Part shown: positions 5,208-55,509 of the stretch, piece after piece
Layout: every line of letters starts with the position of its first letter
Numbering within the stretch: the stretch's first letter is position 1
Assembly: GCF_026684035.1 (NCBI RefSeq)
Contig: NZ_CP113361.1
Location: forward strand, 868,001 to 932,000
DNA from: Methanogenium organophilum
GTDB lineage: Archaea > Halobacteriota > Methanomicrobia > Methanomicrobiales > Methanomicrobiaceae
Reading direction: 5' to 3'
Length of the DNA: 64,000 nucleotides
Notes under the pieces: model-generated
Seen by the model: only the letters and a program-made list of their open reading frames with translations
The model's database searches: none
What the model was told of the DNA's origin: nothing
Translations under genes and position numbers: made by a program

Positions 5208-5960
5208 ATGAATACAACGTGTGAAATTGGCTGTGAATGTGAACGCATAGAACAGATGATACGTCACACCCTCTGGTCATCCGGGGCAAAGGGGTTTGTC
5301 GTGGGCATCAGCGGCGGAGTAGACTCTGCTCTTGCAGCAGCCCTTTGCGCCCGTGCGGTGGGCGGAGAACGGGTGATGGGGATTGCACTCCCGTCCCCCG
5401 TCACCCCGGAAGAAGACCTCAAAGACGGAGCGGATCTCTGTGCCGCCTTTGATATCCCCTTCCTGACGATACCCATCGAACCGATGCTCAGCGCATTTGC
5501 AGGTATGGAGCATTTTGAGAAGACACCATACCTGAGCGGGAACCTGATGGCCCGCATCCGCATGACTACACTCTATTATCATGCAAACCGTCTGCACTAC
5601 CTCGTCTGCGGGACGTCCAACCGTTCCGAGTACATGCTGGGCTACTGCACCAAACATGGGGACAATGCAGCCGATATCCAGCCGATTCTGCACTGTTACA
5701 AGACACGGGTCTTTGCTCTCGCAGAAGAGGTGGGTGTGCCAGCGGCAATCATTGAAAAACCACCTTCAGCAGGCCTCTGGCCGGGCCAGAGTGACGAGGC
5801 AGAGATTGGGTTCGCCTACAAAGAGATCGACAGCGCCCTTGCCTCCCTTGAGGCACATGACTGGACGGCATCAAACGCACAGGAAGAGCTCATCCTTGGG
5901 AAGGTGCAGGCCTCCATGCACAAACGCATGGACCCGCCAAACCTCCTGAAGAATCCCTGA
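5208..5960 (+). CDS. nadE: NH3-dependent NAD+ synthetase
   Basis: Final step of NAD synthesis, amidating deamido-NAD with ammonia and ATP. The PP-loop SGGVDS lies near residue 36. The family blocks CGTSNRSEYMLGYCTKHGD and KPPSAGLWPGQSDEAEIG are intact. The length of about 250 residues matches the ammonia-dependent form without a glutaminase domain. The ATG at 5208 is preferred over 5202 because AGGAG at 5191-5201 is better spaced from it. It is the last gene of the ncsA-channel-nadE operon. Nothing links NAD synthesis to potassium directly; RCK domains of this family often bind nucleotides, so a regulatory link is possible but unproven. Confidence 0.95.
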   Translation: MNTTCEIGCECERIEQMIRHTLWSSGAKGFVVGISGGVDSALAAALCARAVGGERVMGIALPSPVTPEEDLKDGADLCAAFDIPFLTIPIEPMLSAFAGMEHFEKTPYLSGNLMARIRMTTLYYHANRLHYLVCGTSNRSEYMLGYCTKHGDNAADIQPILHCYKTRVFALAEEVGVPAAIIEKPPSAGLWPGQSDEAEIGFAYKEIDSALASLEAHDWTASNAQEELILGKVQASMHKRMDPPNLLKNP

Positions 5961-5986
5961 ACACGTATTTTCAGCAATATTACCGG

Positions 5987-6679
5987 TCAGAATGCACGAA
6001 AGAGATGAGCGTACTCCGCCGGATTATTCAGAAACCCAAGGGAGTCTCCGCCGATGAGCTCATAGATCTCCCGGCCGTGGACGATACCTTCCTCCGGAAA
6101 CTCCGGAGCATCACGGATGGTGAGATCCCCTGCATCGCCATACTGTGGGTTCTTCATCCAGCCGTCGGTGCAGTGATAGTATGCCGCCCCCTGCTGTTCT
6201 TCATACGCCGCATATTCGCTCGCAAACGCTTCTGAAACCAGATTGACCATGCAGAGTTCGGTGTCTGCCGGATTAATGGTCACATGACCATATCCCGGCG
6301 GGACGAGGACGACATCACCCGGTCCCGCCCGCACGACAACAACATATGAGGAGTCTCGGGTCTGGAGCAGATATTCTGCCTGTCCTGCAAGCACCTGGTA
6401 GAGTTCCGGATAGCCGGTGCCGTCCGGTGCTGCCGGATGATAATGTCCCTTGGTCTTTGTAAATTCCCCGCAGAGAGTCCGCGGAGGGATGACGGTATAA
6501 TCAAACCGTATCTGGTTGGCCGCGAGCCATGCCCGGTCCTCTGCCGTTCGGGCAAGGTTCCGGTACATAAAATAGAGGGGGCCGGATGCGTTGCATCCTG
6601 CCACGGCAAGGACCGGTTGCATCTGGCCTATAGTTCGTATCTGTGGGTCAGGGAGGTCGATGTCCCGGTACAGTTCCAT
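5987..6679 (-). CDS. pgiA: Glucose-6-phosphate isomerase, cupin type
   Basis: Metal-dependent archaeal phosphoglucose isomerase that interconverts glucose 6-phosphate and fructose 6-phosphate. The cupin metal motif is visible in TKTKGHYHP followed by the glutamate of YPELYQVL, and the second cupin motif in VLVPPGYGHVTIN. It is slightly longer than the best studied archaeal cPGIs (about 190 residues). The ATG overlaps the stop of the upstream COG1361 gene by one base (TAATG), so it may be translated by reinitiation. With pgk and eno elsewhere in the window it belongs to the gluconeogenic/glycolytic set. Confidence 0.92.
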   Translation of the reverse strand: MELYRDIDLPDPQIRTIGQMQPVLAVAGCNASGPLYFMYRNLARTAEDRAWLAANQIRFDYTVIPPRTLCGEFTKTKGHYHPAAPDGTGYPELYQVLAGQAEYLLQTRDSSYVVVVRAGPGDVVLVPPGYGHVTINPADTELCMVNLVSEAFASEYAAYEEQQGAAYYHCTDGWMKNPQYGDAGDLTIRDAPEFPEEGIVHGREIYELIGGDSLGFLNNPAEYAHLFRAF

Positions 6680-7974
6680 TACTGTTGTTTCTGTTTTCTC
6701 TGTTGATATAGGTAGTACCCTGCACCAAGGATGATGAAGAGCAGCACGGTGAGCACAATCGGGTTTGTCAGCATTGTCCCGAGGCCACTTCTCTGCTGAA
6801 CGGTCACTTCAGCCTTCATCGGGTCTGAGATGACACTGTTCTTGAGAGAGTCCTTGTACCGGATCTCGGTGTCAAGTCCGTATTCCTTGATAGTGGCATC
6901 GTCAGAGACACTGACATGATAGTAGGCAGTGGCCGTCTCGCCGGGTGCCAGGTCACCAAGGTATGCAGTGTCGTCATTGCTCGTGAAAGGGTCAACAGCA
7001 CTGATACGGGATGTGGCATCGTATGCCGTGGCACCGCCGGAGTTCTTGTAAACCACTTCAATCGTGCCTGTTTCTGAAGGGAACATCACATATGCCTCAG
7101 AGACAACCTCGAAGGTGATCTTCTCTCCCACCGGGATACCGATGGTCACCGGCTTTGAGGTGGTCTTATCTCCCTCACTGCTCTCATAGGAGACTGCGAT
7201 ATCCATCGGGTAGGATGAGCCGGAGGCATCCGTTGATGCAGCCACCTTGAAATTTGCCGTTACGGTCTCACCGGGTGCAAACTCACCGATGAAATAACTG
7301 CCGTCAGTCGGGCTGACCGGGCTTCCGGAGACAGATGAAAGGACAAGTGTTGCCTGTTTTCCAGTGTCCTGTCCGCTGTTTTCGACGGTGATCGCCAGGT
7401 AACCCTCGGTTCCGGCATTCAGTTCCTCCACATCTGTTGAGAGGACGGTGATCTGCACATCCGGTTTGATGACAATCTCAAGGGAAAGCGTCTCGGTTTT
7501 CGTCCGGTATTCATACGTCAGCGCATCATTGCTGAACTCGGTTGCGTGGTAGAGATAGGTGTATTCCAGCGTAACCGGAAGGATGTATGTCCCTGCGGGT
7601 GCACCGTCATTTATTCTGACCTCGAAGGGTGCCTGCACGCGTGCTCCGCCAGCAATGTCACCAACAAGTTGCGCATCGGTCTTCACGGAAACCGGCGCAT
7701 CTCCCGCTTCAAGCGTAACAACCACATTCTTGGCGGTGTTAGGGCGATCTTCGCGGGCTACATTCTCCGGATTCTGTGAGGAGAAATCAATGGTGCCGAT
7801 GTTCTCCACCTTCACCGGTATGGTTACCATGGTGTCAGGATAGAACTCGTTGCTCCCCTCGATGCTGATACGCAGATCCGGTGGTCCGGAGATCACTTTC
7901 TCTGCTGCCATCACGGGTGCACAGAGGCACACGAGGAGGGCGATTCCCAGTATTGCAGTGCGTGAAAAATTCAT
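6679..7974 (-). CDS. COG1361-like S-layer/CARDB-repeat surface protein
   Basis: Secreted, membrane-anchored cell-surface protein of about 431 residues. A signal peptide (MNFSRTAILGIALLVCLCAP) is followed by three or four beta-sandwich repeats with recurring phrases such as VENIGTIDF, VENSGQD, YKNSGGATA and GDLAPGET, typical of COG1361/CARDB-like domains. A C-terminal helix (about 407-424) ends in a basic tail, RKQKQQ. The ATG at 7974 is chosen because it starts the signal peptide; longer readings include non-signal sequence. The promoter region is shared with a divergent TrmB-type regulator and holds a palindrome at the expected transcription start, so repression by that regulator is plausible. 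Confidence 0.85.
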   Translation of the reverse strand: MNFSRTAILGIALLVCLCAPVMAAEKVISGPPDLRISIEGSNEFYPDTMVTIPVKVENIGTIDFSSQNPENVAREDRPNTAKNVVVTLEAGDAPVSVKTDAQLVGDIAGGARVQAPFEVRINDGAPAGTYILPVTLEYTYLYHATEFSNDALTYEYRTKTETLSLEIVIKPDVQITVLSTDVEELNAGTEGYLAITVENSGQDTGKQATLVLSSVSGSPVSPTDGSYFIGEFAPGETVTANFKVAASTDASGSSYPMDIAVSYESSEGDKTTSKPVTIGIPVGEKITFEVVSEAYVMFPSETGTIEVVYKNSGGATAYDATSRISAVDPFTSNDDTAYLGDLAPGETATAYYHVSVSDDATIKEYGLDTEIRYKDSLKNSVISDPMKAEVTVQQRSGLGTMLTNPIVLTVLLFIILGAGYYLYQQRKQKQQ

Positions 7975-7982
7975 AATATCAC

Positions 7983-8004
7983 TGTTGTTGTATTTGTAAC
8001 AACA
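7983..8004. promoter_or_regulatory. Operator-like inverted repeat TGTTGTT-N8-AACAACA
   Basis: A perfect 7-bp inverted repeat lies between the divergent COG1361 and TrmB-type genes. It is about 20-45 bases from the symmetrical TATA element at 8021-8030 and covers the expected transcription start of the COG1361 gene. A related element, TGTTG-N11-CAACA, occurs at 8859-8879, just after the regulator gene. Binding by the regulator is inferred. Confidence 0.55.
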
Positions 8005-8020
8005 TTTATCTACACTCTCA

Positions 8021-8030
8021 TTATATATTC
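8021..8030. promoter_or_regulatory. Bidirectional TATA element (TTATATATTC)
   Basis: The AT-only core reads as an archaeal TATA box on both strands. On the plus strand it places transcription start near 8050, upstream of the ATG at 8066. On the minus strand it places the start near 7995, inside the palindrome. Confidence 0.5.
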
Positions 8031-8065
8031 CTATGCCAATGGCCAAGAATACATCAAACACCACA

Positions 8066-8830
8066 ATGATACAGGAACACCTGAAATCCCTCGGCCTGAC
8101 AAAATATGAGAGCCTTGTCTATATCGCCCTCCTCCAGGTCGATGGCGCAACAGCAACCGAGATCCATGAGATTTCCGGCGTCCCCCGGGCATCAGTCTAT
8201 CCTGTTCTCGATAAACTCAGCAAAAAACAGCTGGTCAACATTACCACTACCTCACCGAAACGCTTTGCAGCAACTCCCCCTGAAGAAGCCATCGATAGTC
8301 TCATTGCGCGCATCACCCAGGACTCTGCCACCGTGAAGCAGGAACTCTCTGCAATCTATGAAGAGCGGACCAGCATGAACCACGCCGAACGGCAGGAAAC
8401 CATCTGGAGCATTCACGGCGCGGAAAATATCGGGAGCCGGGCTATTGAGATTATCCGGACCGCAGAGTCTGAGGTCGCCATCATCAGCGGGAGAACCACC
8501 CTGACAAAACCCGTGCAGGAGGCAATCAAAGCCCTTGGCCCGGATATAAAGGTGGAGATTGCAACCGTAGGTGGCAGACGACGTGACGATATCCCCCCGA
8601 ATGCAGAAGAACTTATTATCGAAACGATTCACCAGCCGGAAAACATCGGGGCCGGGAAGCATCTGCCCTGTGTCATTATCATCGACCAGCAGCGGGTGAT
8701 CGCATTTTCCGGCGGGGAGGCCGATACCCCCAGCGCACTCTACTCCGAGTCACCCGGATTTGTGAGCCTGTTTACGGGATACTGGGCATTTGTCAAAGGA
8801 CAAATCCCAATCTCCGGAGAAAAACAGTAG
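8066..8830 (+). CDS. TrmB-type transcriptional regulator
   Basis: HTH regulator of the TrmB family (COG1378). The N-terminal winged helix is clear: LGLTKYESLVYIALL, then the recognition part GVPRASVYPVLDKLSKK. The C-terminal two thirds match the TrmB sensor domain, with the PLD-like stretch SEVAIISGRTTLTKP and a final FSGGEADTPSALYSESPGF. In-frame ATGs at 8033 and 8039 lie only 3-9 bases after the TATA element, so the ATG at 8066 fits the promoter better. It diverges from the COG1361 surface-protein gene, its likely target. TrmB proteins usually sense sugars, but no ligand can be read here. Confidence 0.85.
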   Translation: MIQEHLKSLGLTKYESLVYIALLQVDGATATEIHEISGVPRASVYPVLDKLSKKQLVNITTTSPKRFAATPPEEAIDSLIARITQDSATVKQELSAIYEERTSMNHAERQETIWSIHGAENIGSRAIEIIRTAESEVAIISGRTTLTKPVQEAIKALGPDIKVEIATVGGRRRDDIPPNAEELIIETIHQPENIGAGKHLPCVIIIDQQRVIAFSGGEADTPSALYSESPGFVSLFTGYWAFVKGQIPISGEKQ

Positions 8831-8858
8831 ACAGATTCCGGCAACTGACCGGAAAGTT

Positions 8859-8879
8859 TGTTGTATCCGAAATCCAACA
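8859..8879. promoter_or_regulatory. Inverted repeat TGTTG-N11-CAACA
   Basis: This element resembles the palindrome at 7983-8004 and lies just upstream of the gene at 8890. It could be a second site for the TrmB-type regulator. The half-site is short, so chance is not excluded. Confidence 0.35.
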
Positions 8880-8889
8880 TTCTCCTTTA

Positions 8890-9843
8890 ATGATTCCCCG
8901 AAGGGCCTGTGATGTTGTTCGATGGATATTTTCGGCCGCATCCTATGAAGTGGATGATGGCGATGGAGCAATAGACCTCTCTGCATTCCGCGATGACGAA
9001 TGTGTCGTCATCCTTTGTTCTGAAGACACTGCACAAATAGAAGAATTTGACCGCCTTAAATACCGTGTCAGCCTTGAAAACGGGCCTGTACTCTGTAAAA
9101 AACTGCTGATCTCATTTACACCACCGGTGCAGGTGCAGTCCTGCACTGTCTGGAATGAACGGGAACTCTCTGAAGTGGTCGCCACGACCATCGGCTCGTA
9201 CATCCGGGGGGATACCGTCAGTCTTCCCCTCACACCGTCTGCAGAAGCCGCGGCTCCGCATCTAGCCGGACGTCCGTATGCCGAACCGGAACCCGAACCG
9301 GAGCCCGGCCTTGAGATTCCGCACCTGCCGGTGATGATCACCGGTTCACGGGCACAGGCCATCTGCGGAGTCAAGGGGACCACCACCCTGCGGTTCATCC
9401 CCTACTGGGCATATCAGGCAGAGAGCCACGGAGAGAAGATATACAAGACCCATATCATCAGTTTTGAACGCGAAGAGAACGGCGTTGTAAGTGCGGTAAA
9501 TGGCCTGAAGGGTGACTTCACCGCCGAAATCACCGAGATGAAGGCTGTTCCCGGCGATGCTGACATACTGCCGCCCAAACTTTCGAAAAACGACATAAAA
9601 GAGAAAATTCTTTCCACTCTTGTCGAAGAGCTCTCCCAGACAGTGCGTATTAGTCAGTGTGAGGGAGACACCATCTTCTACGAAGACCGGGATTTCTCAC
9701 CAAACCCGGAAAATATTACCATTTCTGCAGAGATCATTTACGTACCGGTATGGCAGGTCCGCGGCAACCGGATTGCAGAGGTGAACGCATTCACGGGCGA
9801 TATCCTCGAGATGCCCATGGACGATGGCGTAGAGGTTCTCTAA
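8890..9843 (+). CDS. Uncharacterised protein with PEPEPE linker
   Basis: I do not recognise this 317-residue soluble protein. An N-terminal part of about 115 residues alternates strands and helices (DDECVVILCSEDTAQIEEFDRL) and could be a small alpha/beta fold. A linker YAEPEPEPEPGLEIP (about 134-148) separates it from a C-terminal domain of about 170 residues that ends in VWQVRGNRIAEVNAFTGDIL, which recalls PepSY-like strands. No signal peptide or membrane segment is visible. It lies between the TrmB-type regulator and an FAD oxidoreductase on the same strand, with a possible operator upstream, so coregulation with the regulator is conceivable. Confidence 0.75.
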   Translation: MIPRRACDVVRWIFSAASYEVDDGDGAIDLSAFRDDECVVILCSEDTAQIEEFDRLKYRVSLENGPVLCKKLLISFTPPVQVQSCTVWNERELSEVVATTIGSYIRGDTVSLPLTPSAEAAAPHLAGRPYAEPEPEPEPGLEIPHLPVMITGSRAQAICGVKGTTTLRFIPYWAYQAESHGEKIYKTHIISFEREENGVVSAVNGLKGDFTAEITEMKAVPGDADILPPKLSKNDIKEKILSTLVEELSQTVRISQCEGDTIFYEDRDFSPNPENITISAEIIYVPVWQVRGNRIAEVNAFTGDILEMPMDDGVEVL

Positions 9844-9874
9844 AAAACCGGGGAAAAAGAGGAGAGAGACCGAA

Positions 9875-11203
9875 ATGATCACTGTCATCGGTGGCGGCCC
9901 TGCGGGACGGATTGCAGCGATGCGTCTTGCCGCACATGGAAAGGAGGTCACCCTTTTTGACAGCCGTCCGGAGGGGCTGGGCGGACAGTGTCTGCATGAG
10001 GGATGCATGGTAATATGTGCCCAGAATGATGCGGCACGGGCCTGTGACGAGGTGAAAAATCTCCACCGGATGGGGATCACGGCTTCTGCACCCAGTGTCG
10101 ACTATGCCCGCCTGCAGGAGAAAATGGCAGATATCCAGGAGACCATTGCGGGTGTGATTGACACCGAGACAACGGAGGCAGGCGTTACTGTCGTTCCGGA
10201 ACACGCCTGTTTGGAAGGGAAACGGGTGTTTGCAGGCGGCAGGGAATATCTGTCAGAAGCAGTCCTTATTGCAACCGGATCAGCGCCCCGCATCCCTGAT
10301 ATCCCGGGAACCGGACTCACAGGAGTATACACCGCACATTCCCTTCCCTGTCTCAGAAAAACACCCCGGAAAATGGTGATTATCGGCGGGGGAGTTATCG
10401 CAGCCGAGTACGCCTACATATTTTGTGCCATCGGAGCAGACGTTGAGATTGTGGCAAGGAGCACGCTTCTCCGTCCCTTCCCCGGCACCCTTGTCAAAGG
10501 TGTCCGGCGGGATCTCAGAGGTGTCCGGATTCGTGAGGAGACAGAGACTGTCGCAATAGAAGGCACCGACAGTGTGACCGGAGTGAAAATCCGGTGCAAC
10601 GGGGATGAAGATATAATTCCCTGTGACACTGTGCTCATCGCAGCAGGCCTTGCCCCCCGGACAGAGGGGATCTCCGGCATCTCCTGTGGACCAAACGGTG
10701 AAATCCGGATTAATGACCGAATGGAAACAAATGTTCCCGGCGTCTATGCGGCAGGTGATGTGACGGGACCCCCGTACCTCACCCCGGTGGCCCGGCGGGA
10801 AGGACGGCGGGCCGCGGATGCCATCCTCGGTCTGCCCCTGAAGCCTGCACCGGCCTGTATCCCGCAGACCGTCAGACTGCGCCATGAACATTCGTTTGCC
10901 CTTCACCCGGATGCAAAAGGAAACGGCATCATGATCCCGTCACCGGCAGGACCTGGCTCCTTCTGGCTCGTCCCGGATCGCAATACCGGCAGATCACTTC
11001 TTATGACCGAAAAAGAGACCGGCAGGATGACCGGATTCTATGAGGCGGCACCGCAGTCATCGTCCGGCGCAGGTTACCTTGCATACCTGATCAATGAGGG
11101 AATACCTGTCGATGCGATGGAGCCGTTTATGGAAGTGCATCCATCAGCAGAAGGGATTACCTGGCTGATGAGATACTCTGCAGAACAACGGGAACACCAG
11201 TAA
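9875..11203 (+). CDS. FAD-dependent pyridine nucleotide-disulfide oxidoreductase
   Basis: Class I flavin disulfide reductase related to dihydrolipoamide dehydrogenase and mercuric reductase. The FAD Rossmann motif VIGGGPAGRIAA opens the protein. The redox-active pair is in GGQCLHEGCM (CX4C, about residues 38-43). A NAD(P)-binding motif VIIGGGVIAAEYAY follows, and then the FAD motif VYAAGDVTG. The C-terminal dimerisation domain ends in EVHPSAEGI, where the usual His-Pro-Thr-x-x-Glu catalytic dyad has Glu one residue closer. The substrate is unknown; no 2-oxoacid dehydrogenase genes are near. A thiol or disulfide role is likely. Confidence 0.85.
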   Translation: MITVIGGGPAGRIAAMRLAAHGKEVTLFDSRPEGLGGQCLHEGCMVICAQNDAARACDEVKNLHRMGITASAPSVDYARLQEKMADIQETIAGVIDTETTEAGVTVVPEHACLEGKRVFAGGREYLSEAVLIATGSAPRIPDIPGTGLTGVYTAHSLPCLRKTPRKMVIIGGGVIAAEYAYIFCAIGADVEIVARSTLLRPFPGTLVKGVRRDLRGVRIREETETVAIEGTDSVTGVKIRCNGDEDIIPCDTVLIAAGLAPRTEGISGISCGPNGEIRINDRMETNVPGVYAAGDVTGPPYLTPVARREGRRAADAILGLPLKPAPACIPQTVRLRHEHSFALHPDAKGNGIMIPSPAGPGSFWLVPDRNTGRSLLMTEKETGRMTGFYEAAPQSSSGAGYLAYLINEGIPVDAMEPFMEVHPSAEGITWLMRYSAEQREHQ

Positions 11204-44594: not shown

Positions 44595-45851
44595 TCAATA
44601 TGTCCCGTATTTTTTTACCGCGTCAAGAACCGCACGCACATTCTCCGGTTTTGCATCCCCGGATATGCCGCCGTCCACACCGGGGTAGATCATGAGTCCG
44701 CCTTCCTTGCAGTCATCAAGCAGATTCTTCATGAAATCATCCACCTTCTGCGGTGTCCCACCGATGAGGAGTGAATTGGGCGGGCCGCTCGAAAGGATCA
44801 CATGGTCACCCAGCACATCCCGCACCTTCCGCGGGTCAGTCTTGTCAAATACCCCGACGAGCTTTCCTTTCGGAAGGTCCAGCAGGGTCTTGAGGTGGGC
44901 GTCATGCCTGCCTTCGAAGAAGACATACGGCGTCTGTCCCATCTCAATAACCGCTTCGAATACCTGTCTGAGATACGGCCAGTAGAACTCGTCGTAGAGT
45001 TTCGGGTTCAGATATTCGTTGAGATGCAGCGGGAAGAAACACTCCACCACATTCGTCCCGAGTGCCTGCTGCACCTCCGGCGGGATGGTGCCGGTAAGCT
45101 TCGCCGATTCTATCAGAAGCGGCACAAGGGCTTCTGCGGCCTGTTTCACCTCATCGGGATGACGGTAACAGTCAAGGACGACATTGTTTATGTTCCGCAG
45201 GAAATCACCGATGACGTCGAGCGGGGAATACGCAAATGCCATCGGAAACGTCGGGATACCGCATGCGGCGAACTCTGACACGAGTTCTCCCATCGCGGCG
45301 CCCGAGGTCGCGAGCGCTGACCCGTAGCGTGCGAGGGCAGCTATTGCCTCAGGCGACCCCGGCTCACTGAGCGCCCCGCAGATCCGCGGCAGGGCAACAC
45401 GGTTCAGAAATTCTGATGGATCTTCGGAAAACTCTCCATACTCCTCAACCTTCATGATCTCCTTACCGATGAACTGCGGGTGGGAGTCGTCTGCGAGCTC
45501 CCGTCCCGGCCATTTGGTATAGACATCTTTGAGAATATCGTGATACGGCCCCTCCAGGAATCGTGCGCCCGGGACAAGCTCAGGTGCGGAATGCAGGAGG
45601 GAGAGACTCATAAAGGTCGCTTCAAGACCGGTCAGAACCAGAAGCGAATCAAAATCAAAGTCCCGGACTACTTTCAGCGCCGCTTCTTTATTCTTTGCAG
45701 GGTCAAAGATCGCCTCGGTCGCGGTATATCCTGAATAATGGGTGTGAAACAGGCTCATCATCGCCGTAACAGGGACACGGTCCGGTTCCTTTCCCTGAAT
45801 CACCGCCTCAAGACGGTCCAGTTTCTCGCGATAGAGTGCAGCAGCATCCAT
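44595..45851 (-). CDS. URO-D-family corrinoid methyltransferase (MtoB/MtvB-like)
   Basis: A 418-residue member of the uroporphyrinogen decarboxylase (HemE/COG0407) superfamily, of the sort that transfers methyl groups to corrinoid proteins. The C-terminal part carries FFEGRHDAHLKTLLDLPKGK, GVFDKTDPRKVRDVLG and GGTPQKVDDFMKNLL, which resembles O-demethylases rather than the methanol/methylamine enzymes MtaA/MtbA, and the His-Cys-Cys zinc site of those is not evident. It follows the corrinoid-protein gene by one base (TGACATG), so the two are coupled. The likely role is demethylation of a methylated or methoxylated compound; the substrate is unknown. The start at 45851 follows GGAGTG. Confidence 0.82.
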   Translation of the reverse strand: MDAAALYREKLDRLEAVIQGKEPDRVPVTAMMSLFHTHYSGYTATEAIFDPAKNKEAALKVVRDFDFDSLLVLTGLEATFMSLSLLHSAPELVPGARFLEGPYHDILKDVYTKWPGRELADDSHPQFIGKEIMKVEEYGEFSEDPSEFLNRVALPRICGALSEPGSPEAIAALARYGSALATSGAAMGELVSEFAACGIPTFPMAFAYSPLDVIGDFLRNINNVVLDCYRHPDEVKQAAEALVPLLIESAKLTGTIPPEVQQALGTNVVECFFPLHLNEYLNPKLYDEFYWPYLRQVFEAVIEMGQTPYVFFEGRHDAHLKTLLDLPKGKLVGVFDKTDPRKVRDVLGDHVILSSGPPNSLLIGGTPQKVDDFMKNLLDDCKEGGLMIYPGVDGGISGDAKPENVRAVLDAVKKYGTY

Positions 45852-45852
45852 G

Positions 45853-46491
45853 TCACTCCACTCCCGCAAGTGCTCTGATCGTCGTGACACCCGCTGTTGC
45901 ATTATCGGACCATGCGTCCGCACCGGTGTACTTCATCGTCTCTTCGTCTGTCCGTCCGCCGCCGACGATTACTTTCACCTGGTCACGCAGGCCCGCCGCC
46001 GTGATTGCGTCGATGGTATCCTTCATCGATTCTATGGCTTCGGTAAGGAGTCCGCTCAGGCCGACGACGAGAGGTTTGTGCTCTTTGATTGCTGCGACAA
46101 ACTCTTCGGGCGGGACGTCTATTCCCAGGTCGATGACAGTGAAGCCATCTGCCTCAAGAAGGGCTGTTTCAATATTTTTGCCGATATCATGCACATCCCC
46201 GCCAACCGTCCCGATGACAATCGTTCCCTTGTCCTCCATGGCACCCGTCCCGAAAAGGGGCCGTAAGACCTCCATGATCTGATTGAGGATTTCACCGACC
46301 ATCATCAGGTCAGAGACAAAGAACCGCCCTTCCTCAAATCTCTCACCCACGATGTCAGTCGCCTTCCTCACGTCTTCCAAAACAATGGCCGGGTCCTCGT
46401 TTGCGGCAACCCGCTGTTTCAGGAGTTCGATGCACGTTGTCTCGTCGAGGTCGACGAGCGCGTTGATGAAATTGTCTCTCTCATCTGTCAT
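45853..46491 (-). CDS. Methyltransferase cognate corrinoid protein
   Basis: A 212-residue protein with the B12-binding module of MtaC/MtbC/MtoC-type corrinoid proteins. A helical cap domain (about 1-85) is followed by a Rossmann-like domain with GDVHDIGK (98-105, with the cobalt-ligating His at about 101), a Ser in VGLSGLLTEAI and the GG of KVIVGGGRTD. It would shuttle the methyl group between the URO-D methyltransferase and the MtrH-like protein. AAGGAGG lies six bases before the ATG at 46491, the strongest ribosome binding site in this operon. A spacer of about 210 bases separates it from the activator gene and may hold a second promoter. Confidence 0.92.
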   Translation of the reverse strand: MTDERDNFINALVDLDETTCIELLKQRVAANEDPAIVLEDVRKATDIVGERFEEGRFFVSDLMMVGEILNQIMEVLRPLFGTGAMEDKGTIVIGTVGGDVHDIGKNIETALLEADGFTVIDLGIDVPPEEFVAAIKEHKPLVVGLSGLLTEAIESMKDTIDAITAAGLRDQVKVIVGGGRTDEETMKYTGADAWSDNATAGVTTIRALAGVE

Positions 46492-46702
46492 ACTCTTCCT
46501 CCTTCTCACTCTTGAGTGAGACAGTGGGGTATCTGATCAAGGTTACAGATATAGCTTTACCCCGTCACAAAGCATAATTCATGCAAAAAAATAATCAGAG
46601 ACACATATAGGAATTATTACAGCATTTAACAGCATACCGGAGACTTTGAGAGGAGTGTCCCTCATGAAAACGGTAAAAAATGTGCGTATCCCGCACCGGA
46701 TT

Positions 46703-48520
46703 TCACGTACGGGATATCGGGATGGATGCCAGATACTCCCTGTTAAAGGACGGTTCAACAGAGAGTTCGATATACTCGATCTTTGCCAGGAGCTGCCGGA
46801 GTTTTTCCCTCTCGGATATGGATTTCAGGGCCATTTTCGCCCCACCGACGGCTGTTTCTCCAGCAAACAGAATGTTCTTCCGGTCGATGTCGGGGATAAT
46901 TGAGAGCGTTATCGCATTCTCGATATCGACGTGAGTGCCAAATGACCCTGCCAGATATATGGTGTCGATCTGCGACGGGTCGATGCCATACGTTTCCGAC
47001 AGAATCGTCCATCCCGTTTTCAGTGACCCCTTTGCAAGGAGAAACTCATTGATATCCTTCTCTGTTATGGTAATATCACTGCGCGTAGCGCTCTCGTCTT
47101 TCCATGCGATAACAAACTTCGGGACACCATCGACAATGATTCTCGGGTGGTTGAGGTCCCTGAACTTCCCGGTCTTTGTGATAACACCTGCTAAAAAGAG
47201 TTCTGCGACAAGATCGATGACACCACTTCCACAGATCCCTTTCGGCAACGCATCCCCTATGACGGTATACCTGAGGATCTCTCCCTCAATATCCACACTC
47301 TCGATTGCACCGGGAACTGCTTTCATCCCGGAGGTGATGTGTGCTCCTTCAAAGGAGGGGCCTGAAGGGGCAGAGCATGCCAGAATCTTATCTCTGTTTC
47401 CAAGGAGGATCTCAGAATTTGTCCCGATATCGATTGTCAGGCTGACACCGTTCTTCTGCCCGATCTTTGTAATAATCAGGTTTGCAACCGCATCAGACCC
47501 GATATAGCCTTCGATAAGAGGGATCGCCGTTACCATCCCTTCGCAATTCATCAAGATTCCGAGGTCTTTTGCCGGGAAACTCACCATTGCCCCGACTACC
47601 GGAACGAACGGAGCCACACCGATGTATTTGGGAGAGACGCCCAAAAACAGGTGGTGCATCACAGAATTACCGACAAAGGTCATCTCATAGATAGTATCCG
47701 GTGAAATACCGCTCTCGTTGCAGGCCATCTCAATAAGGGAATTTATCGTGTTGATTACCAATTCCTGCAGTTTCAAAAGATTTTCCGGAGATTTTGATGC
47801 ATACGTTATCCGTGACACAACATCTTCGCCATACATGATCTGCGGATTTTCCGTATGTGTGCGGGCAAGGGTCTCCCCGGTGACCAGACTCACGAGATGG
47901 CAGATGACCTTGGACGACCCGATGTCAACTGCTATGCCGAATGTGTCTTTGGTTGTGTCTCCGGGTTCGACTGCAATTATCTGGTTTTTCCATCGAACAA
48001 CCGTTACCTCCCAGTCTGCGTTCCGAAGGGTCGCGGGAAGGTCAGCAAGAATCCCGAGGGACATCCCCGCGTCTTCTCCCAGTGCGTCCTCCAGACGTTC
48101 CCGGTCCGGTCTCGTATCCGCAAAGGTGGGCCTCGTGAGAGAGAGGTGAACCTTCGTCACCACCGGTTCGAGGGGGACCTCTTCGTCCAGCCCGATTCCT
48201 GATATGACCCGCTTCCCTGTCCTGCTCCCCGGTGGGATGTAGACCGTGCACCTGCCGGAGAGGACTTTTGTCTGGCACCCGAGCCGGTAGCCCTCGGCAA
48301 TTTCGTCCTCTTTCAGATGTTCCCGCTCTTTTTCGGTCGGCTCACTGAGGGACCCGACGATTTTTATTATCTGTACCTTACACTTCCCGCAGACTCCCGC
48401 TCCGCCGCACTCTCCGCGAAGACTGATATTTGCACTCTGCGCAAGTTCGAGGAGTGTGTGGGAAGAGTCTGCAACGGTCTTTCCCTCCGGTTCGAAGGTT
48501 ACGGAAACATGGTCTTCCAT
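46703..48520 (-). CDS. Corrinoid activation protein, RACo type, with [2Fe-2S] domain
   Basis: A 605-residue reductive activator of corrinoid proteins. The N-terminal ferredoxin domain has Cys38, Cys44, Cys47 and Cys82 (CGGAGVCGKC, GCQTK), giving a plant-type [2Fe-2S] cluster. A linker and then the ASKHA ATPase-like region follow (FGIAVDIGSSKVICHLVS, TIDIGTNSEILLG, GICGSGVIDLVAELF, IYLAGSFGTHVDIENA). This is the bacterial RACo/DUF4445 layout and not the RamA layout of methylotrophic methanogens, which carries C-terminal [4Fe-4S] clusters. It would reduce inactive Co(II) to Co(I) on the neighbouring corrinoid protein at ATP cost. It begins one base after the MtrH-like gene's stop. Confidence 0.9.
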   Translation of the reverse strand: MEDHVSVTFEPEGKTVADSSHTLLELAQSANISLRGECGGAGVCGKCKVQIIKIVGSLSEPTEKEREHLKEDEIAEGYRLGCQTKVLSGRCTVYIPPGSRTGKRVISGIGLDEEVPLEPVVTKVHLSLTRPTFADTRPDRERLEDALGEDAGMSLGILADLPATLRNADWEVTVVRWKNQIIAVEPGDTTKDTFGIAVDIGSSKVICHLVSLVTGETLARTHTENPQIMYGEDVVSRITYASKSPENLLKLQELVINTINSLIEMACNESGISPDTIYEMTFVGNSVMHHLFLGVSPKYIGVAPFVPVVGAMVSFPAKDLGILMNCEGMVTAIPLIEGYIGSDAVANLIITKIGQKNGVSLTIDIGTNSEILLGNRDKILACSAPSGPSFEGAHITSGMKAVPGAIESVDIEGEILRYTVIGDALPKGICGSGVIDLVAELFLAGVITKTGKFRDLNHPRIIVDGVPKFVIAWKDESATRSDITITEKDINEFLLAKGSLKTGWTILSETYGIDPSQIDTIYLAGSFGTHVDIENAITLSIIPDIDRKNILFAGETAVGGAKMALKSISEREKLRQLLAKIEYIELSVEPSFNREYLASIPISRT

Positions 48521-48521
48521 A

Positions 48522-49394
48522 TCAGACTTCTATCGTTTCTTTCATCCTTGCCGCGTACCGGTACGATGTATTGACGGTGAATACCGCAGGGAAGACCGAT
48601 TCGCATCCTTCAACCGGCCCGTACAGGACAAAATCCGCTCCCGCAAAGACCGGCATGAGGCTTGCTGTCAGGTCCGCTGCTTTTACCGCCTCTTTTCCGA
48701 GCATGGTCTTCAGCCCTCTCCACGTAGATATCGCATTGTGCGCCGCCGTTCCACACGGAAGGCCGGTGCGGCTCTTTATTTCAAGAGTCGCTTTATTTGA
48801 GGGAGTGAGGCACGGGACGTCCATTACAAAGGTGTCCACCAGAATCTTTGTGACACCCGCGTCCTCCATTTGGGGTGCAAGAATTTCAACCAGTTCATCG
48901 CGTGCGCTGCTTCTCATGATGTCTTTTGTATAGGTGAGAAGAATGCCCGCTTCGATGCCGTTTCTCTTCAGGGCGGCAAATTCGTCCTCTTTGGTCTCCA
49001 CTGAAACCGAGTTGTAGATGACCCTTTCTTCCAGCCCCGTCTCTTTGGCATAGTCGATGGCGGCAATTTTTACGGCAGGACTTGCGGAATCGATGAGAAA
49101 CGGCCGGTCGGTTATGCCCGCTACAAAATCGACATACCGGATGACCGCCTCAGGCGATGAAGAGATGATATCGATTAACGCCGGATTTCCTGTTATTTCT
49201 CCGAGTTCTGCCTGCCTGTGTATCAGCGTCTCGGCGGCATCTGTGTCAAATATCCCTTTCTTTTCATCGGTTACGATCCTGTGCCGCGAATAGAACATAC
49301 TCCCGACAAGGACGGTCGGAACTTCCCCTGGCTGGCCACCTACTTTGACGCCGGCAATTTCAAACGTCTTTTGATCGGTCCTGAATCTGTACAT
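48522..49394 (-). CDS. MtrH-like methylcorrinoid:tetrahydromethanopterin methyltransferase (MtoA-like)
   Basis: A 290-residue TIM-barrel protein of the MtrH family, which moves a methyl group between a corrinoid and tetrahydromethanopterin. It begins MYRFRTDQKTFEIAGVKVGGQPGE, the usual MtrH opening. PFLIDSASPAVKIAAIDYA and TKILVDTFVMDVP are pterin-barrel strands. No other Mtr subunit (A-G) is near, so it is a stand-alone paralog dedicated to this operon and not the sodium-pumping complex. GTGAG lies eight bases before the ATG at 49394, and a GTG at 49403 is an alternative. It is the first gene of the four-gene operon. Confidence 0.88.
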   Translation of the reverse strand: MYRFRTDQKTFEIAGVKVGGQPGEVPTVLVGSMFYSRHRIVTDEKKGIFDTDAAETLIHRQAELGEITGNPALIDIISSSPEAVIRYVDFVAGITDRPFLIDSASPAVKIAAIDYAKETGLEERVIYNSVSVETKEDEFAALKRNGIEAGILLTYTKDIMRSSARDELVEILAPQMEDAGVTKILVDTFVMDVPCLTPSNKATLEIKSRTGLPCGTAAHNAISTWRGLKTMLGKEAVKAADLTASLMPVFAGADFVLYGPVEGCESVFPAVFTVNTSYRYAARMKETIEV

Positions 49395-52099: not shown

Positions 52100-53635
52100 T
52101 CAGGGTGCAGCCCGCATTTCCGCCCCGTGATTGCAGGCCCGGGTGAGGACGACCGACCCTCCGGTCTCTCCCATCACCTCTTCTGCCGTCCGGAGGGTGT
52201 CCTGCATCCCGGTATCACCAATGGCATACACCGTCGGGCCGAATGAACTCAGCCCGACTCCCGCAGCACCGGTATCCCTGAGAGCGGTGATCAGGTCGTG
52301 GACCAGGGGAGGCTGAAGACCGAGTTCGACCTTTTTCAACCCGAGACTCTGCACTGCATTCACTGCTGTGCCAAAGAGATCGAGGTCTTTTTCGATAATT
52401 CCGGGGAGCATCTGCATCATAACCGTGTGGCAGAGCGCCTGCACTTCGCCGACAGGGACCGGGCAGTACTGCCGGAAGATATCAACCTCGGCCTTCCCGC
52501 TCGCCCCCTCCGGGATGGCAGGGGTTGCGAGAAGAATCCGCCAGTCGTCGGGGAACGGGTGCCGGAAGAGAACCGGTGCGGGTTTCACCCCGCCGGATGC
52601 GGAAGACGGCCGGAAATCGGATTTTGCCCCTGACGGGCCGAACCGGTGGCCGCCGTCGAGAATAAATCCGCCTGACTCGAAGACCGCCGTCCCGATACCG
52701 GACGTGCCGCCTCTCCCGGCAACGGCAGCCATCTCCCGTACGGGAAGGGGACGGTAGAGTTCGCAGATAGCACGGGCGGTGGCAAGACTCACCTGCGTGC
52801 CGCTCCCGAGACCGATATGACCGGGATAGGTGCGGTGAAGGGTAATCTCGGCACCCCCCTGCACCCCCAGTGCGGTAAGAACCCGTTCTGCCGTTTTCTG
52901 AATCCGGTCGCAATTCCCGTTGTCACTCCGGACACGAATATCACTGCTTCGTTTTGCCTCGATGACAACAGCCGGATCTTCAACCGAGAGGCCGATGCCG
53001 CCGTCGACCCTGCCTGAACTGCCGTTCATGTCGATGAGGCCCATGTGAATGCGTGCCGGTGCTTCTACGATTACCCGGGATTCGTCGGTGAAGTGCGAGC
53101 ACGGGAAGGTCTCCCGGATGGCGATAAGAGGTTCTCCGCCGGTGATGATGCGGTACCTCCGGGAGAGCAGGGGCTCATGGCGGAAGGTCCCGAGGATGCC
53201 GCTGACACGGGTTCCGGCCCGGCAGACCCGTACATCGTCGAGTTCACGCCGCGACTCAATCTGGTGCATCCGCATGATCCGGCCGATGGGAATGTCGGCC
53301 CGCATCAGATCGTCTTTAAAGGAAGGAGCCAGCCGGGAGAGCGGGGTGTCTGAAGCAGCATAGAGAAGGACTTTTCCGTCTTCACCCTCGTTCAGCGTCA
53401 CAATGCGATGGTTGACCGGCTCTCCTTCCGGTATCTCCAAAGACACTGCCGCGTGTTTATCGGCCGGAACCACTTCCTGAGAGATGGTATGCACCGTCAC
53501 CTCGCAGTCAAGAGCATTTTCAAGAAGAGCGGTCACCGACCCGTCTGTTCCGAGGAGGATCTTCTGCATCGGCGAAAGCGTGCCAACTTCTGTTTCCAGG
53601 TCCCGGAGTTTCTCAGCGATATTGAATGATTTCAT
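52100..53635 (-). CDS. Chorismate lyase domain fused to beta-RFAP synthase
   Basis: A bifunctional protein of about 511 residues. Residues 1-175 match DUF98, the archaeal chorismate lyase family (LSPMQKILLGTDGSVTALLENA, RRYRIITGGEPLIAIRETFP). Residues 185-510 are a GHMP-kinase-fold beta-ribofuranosylaminobenzene 5'-phosphate synthase (VEAPARIHMGLIDMNG, GHIGLGSGTQVSLATA, AGRGGTSGIGTAVFE). The first makes 4-hydroxybenzoate from chorismate and the second condenses an arenoic acid with phosphoribosyl pyrophosphate, early in methanopterin synthesis. The fusion joins aromatic precursor supply to its use. Starts at 53641 and 53635 are two codons apart. Confidence 0.9.
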   Translation of the reverse strand: MKSFNIAEKLRDLETEVGTLSPMQKILLGTDGSVTALLENALDCEVTVHTISQEVVPADKHAAVSLEIPEGEPVNHRIVTLNEGEDGKVLLYAASDTPLSRLAPSFKDDLMRADIPIGRIMRMHQIESRRELDDVRVCRAGTRVSGILGTFRHEPLLSRRYRIITGGEPLIAIRETFPCSHFTDESRVIVEAPARIHMGLIDMNGSSGRVDGGIGLSVEDPAVVIEAKRSSDIRVRSDNGNCDRIQKTAERVLTALGVQGGAEITLHRTYPGHIGLGSGTQVSLATARAICELYRPLPVREMAAVAGRGGTSGIGTAVFESGGFILDGGHRFGPSGAKSDFRPSSASGGVKPAPVLFRHPFPDDWRILLATPAIPEGASGKAEVDIFRQYCPVPVGEVQALCHTVMMQMLPGIIEKDLDLFGTAVNAVQSLGLKKVELGLQPPLVHDLITALRDTGAAGVGLSSFGPTVYAIGDTGMQDTLRTAEEVMGETGGSVVLTRACNHGAEMRAAP

Positions 53636-53761
53636 AGGCATTCACGGTAAGAACGGTAAAGCATTGTTGCCTCAGACAGTTAATGGTATAGATTATCAGG
53701 GATCGCAATATCGTAGGAGTCGGGTGCATCAGGTTCTTTTTGCGCTCCAACCATAAGCCCC

Positions 53762-54282: not shown

Positions 54283-55509
54283 TTAATACTGCCGCATAAT
54301 CCTGATTGCACAGAATTCCCCACACATCGTGCACTCATCCTCTTCATCGGAAAATGCCTGTGCCCGGGCGGGATCAAGGGCATGGACAATCTGGCCTTTC
54401 GGATCCAGTGTCGCTCTGATATGTGCGATCTTTTTGTCTTTGGCATCTTTCCCGTACTTCACGGTATCACCAATATGGGCCGCAATTTTAAAGGCGATCA
54501 GCCCCTCCTTCACTGCTTCCGGGTTCGGAAGACCTAGATGTTCAGCAGGCGTAATATAGCAGAGATAATCGGCACCGGCAGTGCTTGCCATACTTCCACC
54601 GACACATCCCGCGATATGGTCGTACCCTGCGGCGATGTCTGTCGGCAGGGGACCTGCAACAAAAAGCGGGAATGGCGACTGTTTCTTATATTGCTTCACA
54701 TACTTCGAGATCCGGTCGCTGCGGATATGCCCCCCGCATCCTTCAATGATCACCTGAACGCCATTTTCATGGGCACGGTGCGCAAGGGCGATATTCTGCC
54801 GCAGTTCTTCGAGCTGCATCCGGTCCCGGCAGTCATGGATGCAACCGGATCGTGCTGTATTCCCGAGAGAGAGGACAATATCACGCTTCTTACAGAGAGA
54901 AAGCACTTCGTCAAAACGCTCGACAAAGGGATTCTCGCATTCGTTAATCAGCATAAATGCGCTCGTGATCGAACCGCCTTTCGAGACCATCCCAAGGATC
55001 CGTTTATTCTTACGGAATGACTCCAACATGGCCCTGTTCACGCAATGGACAACAATCGAGCTGACTCCTTCGTCAGCATGTCTGCGAAGCGTGGCAAAAA
55101 TATCATCGTCAGTCATCTCTTTCAGGCCGTTTTCGACAGCCGCCGGGTAGACCGGGACAGTCGTTATGGGCAGAGTGGAATTTTCAAATACTGCTTTCCG
55201 GATGGCGTTAATGTCCCCTCCCATGGACAGGTCGCTTATCGTGTCGGCACCGAACATTTCGGCGATCCGGACTTTTTCAATCTCGTCCTCCACGCTGACT
55301 TTTCCGGTTGAAGTACCAAGATTGACATTGATCTTGGTCGATAGCCCGGCACCGATGCCGGTCATGCGGTCGTCGCGCTGCATGATCACAATGCTGCCCT
55401 CCGCTATCCGCTCAGCGATGATTTCCGGACTGATTCCCTCAGCATGGGAGAGAGCTTCCATCTGGTGTGTTATTATCCCGTTTTCTGCATACCTGACAAG
55501 TGAATCCAT
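54283..55509 (-). CDS. thiC: Phosphomethylpyrimidine synthase ThiC
   Basis: Radical-SAM enzyme that makes hydroxymethylpyrimidine phosphate from aminoimidazole ribotide for thiamine. Matching blocks are GIGAGLSTKINVNLGTST, ADTISDLSMGG, TTVPVYPAAV, SKGGSITSAFM, VIIEGCGGHI and ITPAEHLGLPN. The C-terminal cluster reads CTMCGEFC, which is one residue shorter than the common CX2CX4C. The length of 408 residues suits archaeal ThiC. I see no thiamine riboswitch in the upstream region. A paralog elsewhere in the genome is possible. Confidence 0.92.
   Translation of the reverse strand: MDSLVRYAENGIITHQMEALSHAEGISPEIIAERIAEGSIVIMQRDDRMTGIGAGLSTKINVNLGTSTGKVSVEDEIEKVRIAEMFGADTISDLSMGGDINAIRKAVFENSTLPITTVPVYPAAVENGLKEMTDDDIFATLRRHADEGVSSIVVHCVNRAMLESFRKNKRILGMVSKGGSITSAFMLINECENPFVERFDEVLSLCKKRDIVLSLGNTARSGCIHDCRDRMQLEELRQNIALAHRAHENGVQVIIEGCGGHIRSDRISKYVKQYKKQSPFPLFVAGPLPTDIAAGYDHIAGCVGGSMASTAGADYLCYITPAEHLGLPNPEAVKEGLIAFKIAAHIGDTVKYGKDAKDKKIAHIRATLDPKGQIVHALDPARAQAFSDEEDECTMCGEFCAIRIMRQY

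Follow-up and report, generated by a model that had tools for sequence, protein, structure and literature searches.

A Mto-type four-gene methyltransferase operon in a Methanogenium-type chromosome, most likely for methoxylated aromatics

The Mto cluster of Archaeoglobus fulgidus comprises AF_0006 (MtoC), AF_0007 (MtoB), AF_0008 (MFS), AF_0009 (MtoA), AF_0010 (MtoD) and AF_0013 (MFS), and is described as induced during growth on 2-methoxyphenol (PMC8359953). In the account given for Methermicoccus shengliensis, mtoB is present twice in the operon, which also includes transporters and a regulator, and the demethylation chemistry was shown with reconstituted MtoB, MtoC, MtoA and MtoD, H4F replacing tetrahydromethanopterin (H4MPT) (PMC8630106). 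Kurth et al. 2021 list mto genes in A. fulgidus, Methanolacinia petrolearia and Methanothermobacter tenebrarum, the latter two being hydrogenotrophs (PMC8630106). The presence of mto genes in Methanomicrobiales is therefore already published, and the novelty that the original prediction had seen in such a route for this order falls away. What we add is the patchy distribution (10/232 genomes), a tandem array in one genome of the same family, and a palindrome ahead of mtoC. No growth test of Methanolacinia petrolearia or Methanogenium on methoxy compounds was found in the open-licence literature. The Cdm system of Acetobacterium (PDB 9rui) likewise consists of an MT1, a corrinoid protein and an MT2, with a related URO-D fold without zinc, but it is distant and its donor and its acceptor (H4F) differ (PMC13222342). 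By its authors' account, CdmB has the UROD fold, acts on chloromethane and dichloromethane and not on methoxylated aromatics, and is 31% identical to MtoB (PMC13222342).

The window analyzed here is the whole stretch of 64,000 nucleotides at 868001-932000 of a complete Methanogenium-type chromosome of 2,648,164 bases. Open reading frames and Pfam profiles showed four mto-like genes at window positions 44595-49394, all intact and all on the minus strand. The features are as follows.

48522..49394, minus strand: mtoA-like gene, MtrH-family methylcorrinoid:tetrahydromethanopterin methyltransferase; 290 aa, ATG at 49394; Pfam MtrH, E 6.9e-97
46703..48520, minus strand: mtoD-like gene, RACo-type reductive activator with an N-terminal 2Fe-2S domain; 605 aa; Fer2, RACo_linker, Raco_middle and RACo_C_ter
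46492..46702, minus strand: gap between mtoD and mtoC, candidate promoter with an operator or leader hairpin (recognized by eye); TATA-like AGCTATAT, palindrome CTCACTCAAGAGTGAG
45853..46491, minus strand: mtoC-like gene, corrinoid protein with a helical cap and a B12-binding domain; 212 aa; B12-binding_2 and B12-binding
44595..45851, minus strand: mtoB-like gene, URO-D-family methyltransferase 1 (P0001); 418 aa; Pfam URO-D, E 2e-22

The gene starts were chosen from conserved first residues and from a Shine-Dalgarno-like AAGGAGG, which precedes the mtoC ATG at 46491. The gene content and the shared strand agree with the original prediction. That prediction had also placed the genes mostly one base apart, which holds for MtrH-like/RACo and corrinoid/URO-D (1 base each) but not for RACo/corrinoid, where the gap is 211 bases. 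No MFS transporter gene stood beside the operon among the neighbouring genes within the window, and no Rfam model matched at gathering score in the window.

In the whole genome, the Pfam models found one gene each for URO-D, B12-binding_2 and RACo, and two MtrH genes. The second MtrH gene sits at a separate locus, in the canonical mtr operon at 661 kb, with two mtrA-type genes and a methyl-CoM reductase alpha gene upstream. The MtoA-like protein shared 52% identity with A. fulgidus MtoA and 57% with that of Archaeoglobus sp. L023, compared with 31% to the MtrH of its own genome (blastp). It scored under the TIGR01114 mtrH cut-off and over that of NF002142, and it matched NF047990 below that model's cut-off. 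The identities and the two loci indicate an MtrH-like MT2 distinct from the MtrH of the Mtr complex. Its best PDB match was 8z9u. It also matched 6sj8, the MtrH-family MT2 by which the glycine betaine system MtgA/MtgC resembles this one. The MT1 of MtgA/MtgC belongs to the MttB family, not to URO-D.

The other partners that a Mto system requires were also present. The RACo-type activator with its N-terminal 2Fe-2S domain matched PDB 3zyy (E 3e-114) and was 53% identical to A. fulgidus MtoD. The two-domain corrinoid protein, encoded together with the MT1, was 64% identical to A. fulgidus MtoC and matched PDB 4jgi and 1y80. The MtoB-like protein was 61% identical to A. fulgidus MtoB (blastp). 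All four proteins are orthologous to those of one single operon in genome G330 (7.5-16.6 kb; order CP, B, MFS, A, D, CP, B, MFS). We took G330 as A. fulgidus, and this gene order agrees with the published AF_0006-0010 and AF_0013 labels (PMC8359953). Unlike the window operon, the Archaeoglobus cluster has MFS genes, a second mtoC-mtoB pair and another gene order, and in Archaeoglobus sulphate serves as the acceptor for oxidation of the methyl group. The protein content equals that of Methermicoccus shengliensis (PMC8630106), while our sequence comparison with known Mto systems rests on A. fulgidus and not on Methermicoccus.

The URO-D protein was placed in a tree of 44 rows, with MtoB represented by Archaeoglobus. 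Thirteen Methanomicrobiales rows and nine Archaeoglobus-type rows formed one 22-row clade with support 100/100. Together with the match of all four partners to the A. fulgidus operon, this bears out the reading as a Mto-like operon. The HemE and MtaA-type rows lay beyond a branch with support 100/100 and a length of 1.88 changes per column, so that the grouping with true uroporphyrinogen decarboxylases, named earlier as a refutation, was not seen. CdmB and three Thermoprotei rows fell just outside the MtoB clade, so the window protein does not group with CdmB. The closest named relative was Methanogenium marinum DSM 15558 (87% identity in the URO-D protein), in agreement with the predicted Methanomicrobiales setting.

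RQAGRY is a HemE motif, and HxC is the zinc motif of the MtaA/MtbA type. RQAGRY was found in both HemE rows and HxCG in 9/9 MtaA-clade rows, and neither occurred in the window URO-D protein. One of the 22 MtoB-clade rows (a G022 copy) has an HxC, which is not at the zinc place because it lies near residue 38. Some acetogen O-demethylases carry the zinc motif E-x14-E-x20-H; it matched 0/44 tree rows and is therefore uninformative. The AlphaFold2 model of the MtoB-like protein (mean pLDDT 94.3) had the UROD fold (Z 25.9 to 1r3w, rmsd 3.4, 322 residues), and its best structural matches were UROD chains and the Methanosarcina mazei methyltransferase 4ay7. By sequence, the nearest solved structure was CdmB (E 2e-80), which was not among the fold-search matches from a structure library up to April 2026.

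Matches to mtoB (P0001) were found in 12/232 genomes of the order Methanomicrobiales, and 220/232 had none. Ten genomes had a full-length mtoB (frame-split in G008), and all ten carried all four partners. The other two, G173 and G183, had only C-terminal mtoB pieces on short contigs. Within the genus, mtoB was present in 3/7 genomes and absent from 4/7. Methanogenium marinum DSM 15558 (L021) carries all four mto genes. In the phylum sample, 18/392 genomes matched at 1e-20, and in the order of G410, the source of the Archaeoglobus rows, 10/57 matched. Genome G015, which is probably Methanolacinia petrolearia, carries these four genes in identical order (identity: mtoB 72%, mtoC 72%, mtoD 68%, mtoA 69%), but the neighbours of its mto genes differ from those in the window. 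In G022, of the same family, a single mtoA-mtoD pair is followed by a tandem array (G022:C3:296980-312961; L055, L056) in which two MFS genes accompany six copies each of mtoC and mtoB; five of the mtoB copies are intact and one is broken. This composition would be expected if the acceptor side were shared among several donors.

Some related clusters were also observed. Four mto genes lie at 5352-10178 of G008:C1 (L060), where the MtrH-like, RACo and URO-D genes are split by frame changes; since this is a draft genome of 59% completeness, the splits reflect sequencing error or decay. G238:C1:930839-941306 and G284:C1:1723315-1733052, from one genus and probably haloarchaea judging from size and order, each contain three MtoB-related URO-D genes within about 10 kb. 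Only those of G238 entered the tree, where they fell on the MtoB side. A cluster in Thermoprotei archaeon B15_G16 (L024:2063-11321) has MtrH-like, corrinoid, RACo and three URO-D genes, the URO-D proteins being 38-43% identical to the window MtoB.

In this study, we believe that the window operon is a Mto-type demethylation system, with a methoxylated aromatic as the most likely donor and tetrahydromethanopterin as the acceptor, at a probability of roughly 0.77. We infer its direction, acceptor, donor and expression from sequence. The MtoB-like protein would bind the methyl donor and methylate the corrinoid, in its Co(I) state, that the MtoC-like protein carries. From this corrinoid the methyl group would go to tetrahydromethanopterin through the MtoA-like protein, and the MtoD-like protein would re-reduce the corrinoid in an ATP-dependent manner after accidental oxidation. 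The methyl-H4MPT may join the CO2-reduction pathway before Mtr and be converted to methane by Mtr and Mcr with electrons from H2 or formate; oxidation or use in acetyl-CoA would be alternative fates. We counted against this reading the lack of an adjoining MFS gene, unlike in Archaeoglobus and G022, the donor of CdmB, and the 4/7 genomes of the genus without the gene.

The donor is the weakest link, because the distant relative CdmB uses chloromethane and rejects methoxylated aromatics, and the wider family thus switches donors. The route could be the same but draw its methyl group from a methyl halide or some other small molecule methylated on O or S. The chloromethane and dichloromethane activity of CdmB, as the closest solved relative, is consistent with this, as is the lack of an aromatic-acid transporter beside the operon. 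We consider such a donor unlikely, since the window protein is 61% identical to the MtoB of an operon induced by 2-methoxyphenol, whereas CdmB and MtoB share only 31% by the figure of the CdmB authors (PMC13222342) and CdmB stands outside the 100/100 clade.

A Mto set run in reverse would carry the methyl group from methyl-tetrahydromethanopterin to the corrinoid, and the URO-D protein would methylate a cell compound, in biosynthesis or as an Mtr bypass. MtrH-family reactions are reversible in principle, and the organism should produce much CH3-H4MPT. However, the window protein lacks the HxC motif that marks thiol-methylating enzymes of the MtaA/MtbA kind, and the characterised orthologues act in the demethylating direction, which makes this direction very improbable. 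A core biosynthetic role was rejected on the 220 genomes of the order without a match; with only 12/232 matching, the mto set is not a core step.

The patchy distribution and the fragments on short contigs in G173 and G183 would also fit a decaying, unused relic. We find this hardly credible for the window, where the four frames are intact and under purifying selection. Against Methanogenium marinum, dN/dS was 0.068 for mtoA, 0.139 for mtoD, 0.096 for mtoC and 0.067 for mtoB, and against G015 it was 0.08-0.09. The values of 0.07-0.14 against M. marinum indicate that all four genes are maintained. That the URO-D gene encodes a true uroporphyrinogen decarboxylase, or a CoM methyltransferase like MtaA/MtbA, and that its neighbours are unrelated to it, has a likelihood close to nil. 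The shared fold (UROD chains and 4ay7) speaks for this reading, but both HemE (27 bits where the hemE model demands 302.95; RQAGRY absent) and MtaA/MtbA/CmuA (mtaA_cmuA 24.9 bits against 235.4; HxC absent) are also contradicted by the tree.

Returning to the Mto-type operon, the palindrome in the mtoD-mtoC gap (46505-46520) ends 13 bases before the mtoC ATG, with the TATA-like stretch about 30 bases upstream. Of the 15 mtoC leaders from Methanomicrobiales, nine contained an exact CTCAC-N5-8-GTGAG, placed 13-15 bases ahead of the ATG. When a spacer of 4 was also allowed (CTCAC-N4-8-GTGAG), the count was 10/15, which does not represent independent events because the leaders are related by descent. 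Besides the window, the leaders with the palindrome were from L021, L052, L053, L055, L056, L058 and L060, and the Methanofollis leader had it with one mismatch. It was missing from both family f6 rows (G157, G200), 2/6 G022 copies and three Archaeoglobus leaders. Of 235 further ORF starts from these loci, none had the exact palindrome and two had a copy within one mismatch. The window held two copies against 0.23 expected, the other (13571) lying inside a gene.

Its position and the TATA-like stretch suggest that the palindrome controls mtoCB, a hint that mtoAD and mtoCB form separate units. The divergent orientation of the mtoAD and mtoCB pairs in G200 fits two units. A leader hairpin is favoured by the variation in spacer length (4-8), a protein site by the invariance of the arms. 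The folding z-scores of nine mtoC leaders ranged from -1.1 to -3.9. In the leader alignment the core pairs of the palindrome hardly vary, so covariation does not separate an RNA hairpin from a DNA operator.

We tentatively propose, as a possibility short of even odds, that the mto genes are a patchy, regulated add-on with which Methanomicrobiales living on H2 or formate convert aryl methoxyl groups to methane via methyl-H4MPT. The palindrome would switch mtoCB separately from mtoAD, and tandem copying of mtoCB would have widened the donor range in some species. If so, some methanogens classed as users of H2/CO2 or formate could also turn lignin- or coal-derived methoxyl groups into methane, which would bear on how methane is budgeted in sediments and the subsurface.

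Two other genes of the window were noted. At 52100-53641, a Beta-RFA-P synthase of methanopterin synthesis carries at its N-terminus a fused domain resembling chorismate pyruvate-lyase, a fusion that would couple the making and using of 4-hydroxybenzoate. The ThiC-family gene at 54283-55509 scored over one ThiC cut-off (488.5 against 410) and under that of TIGR00190 (418.2 against 460).
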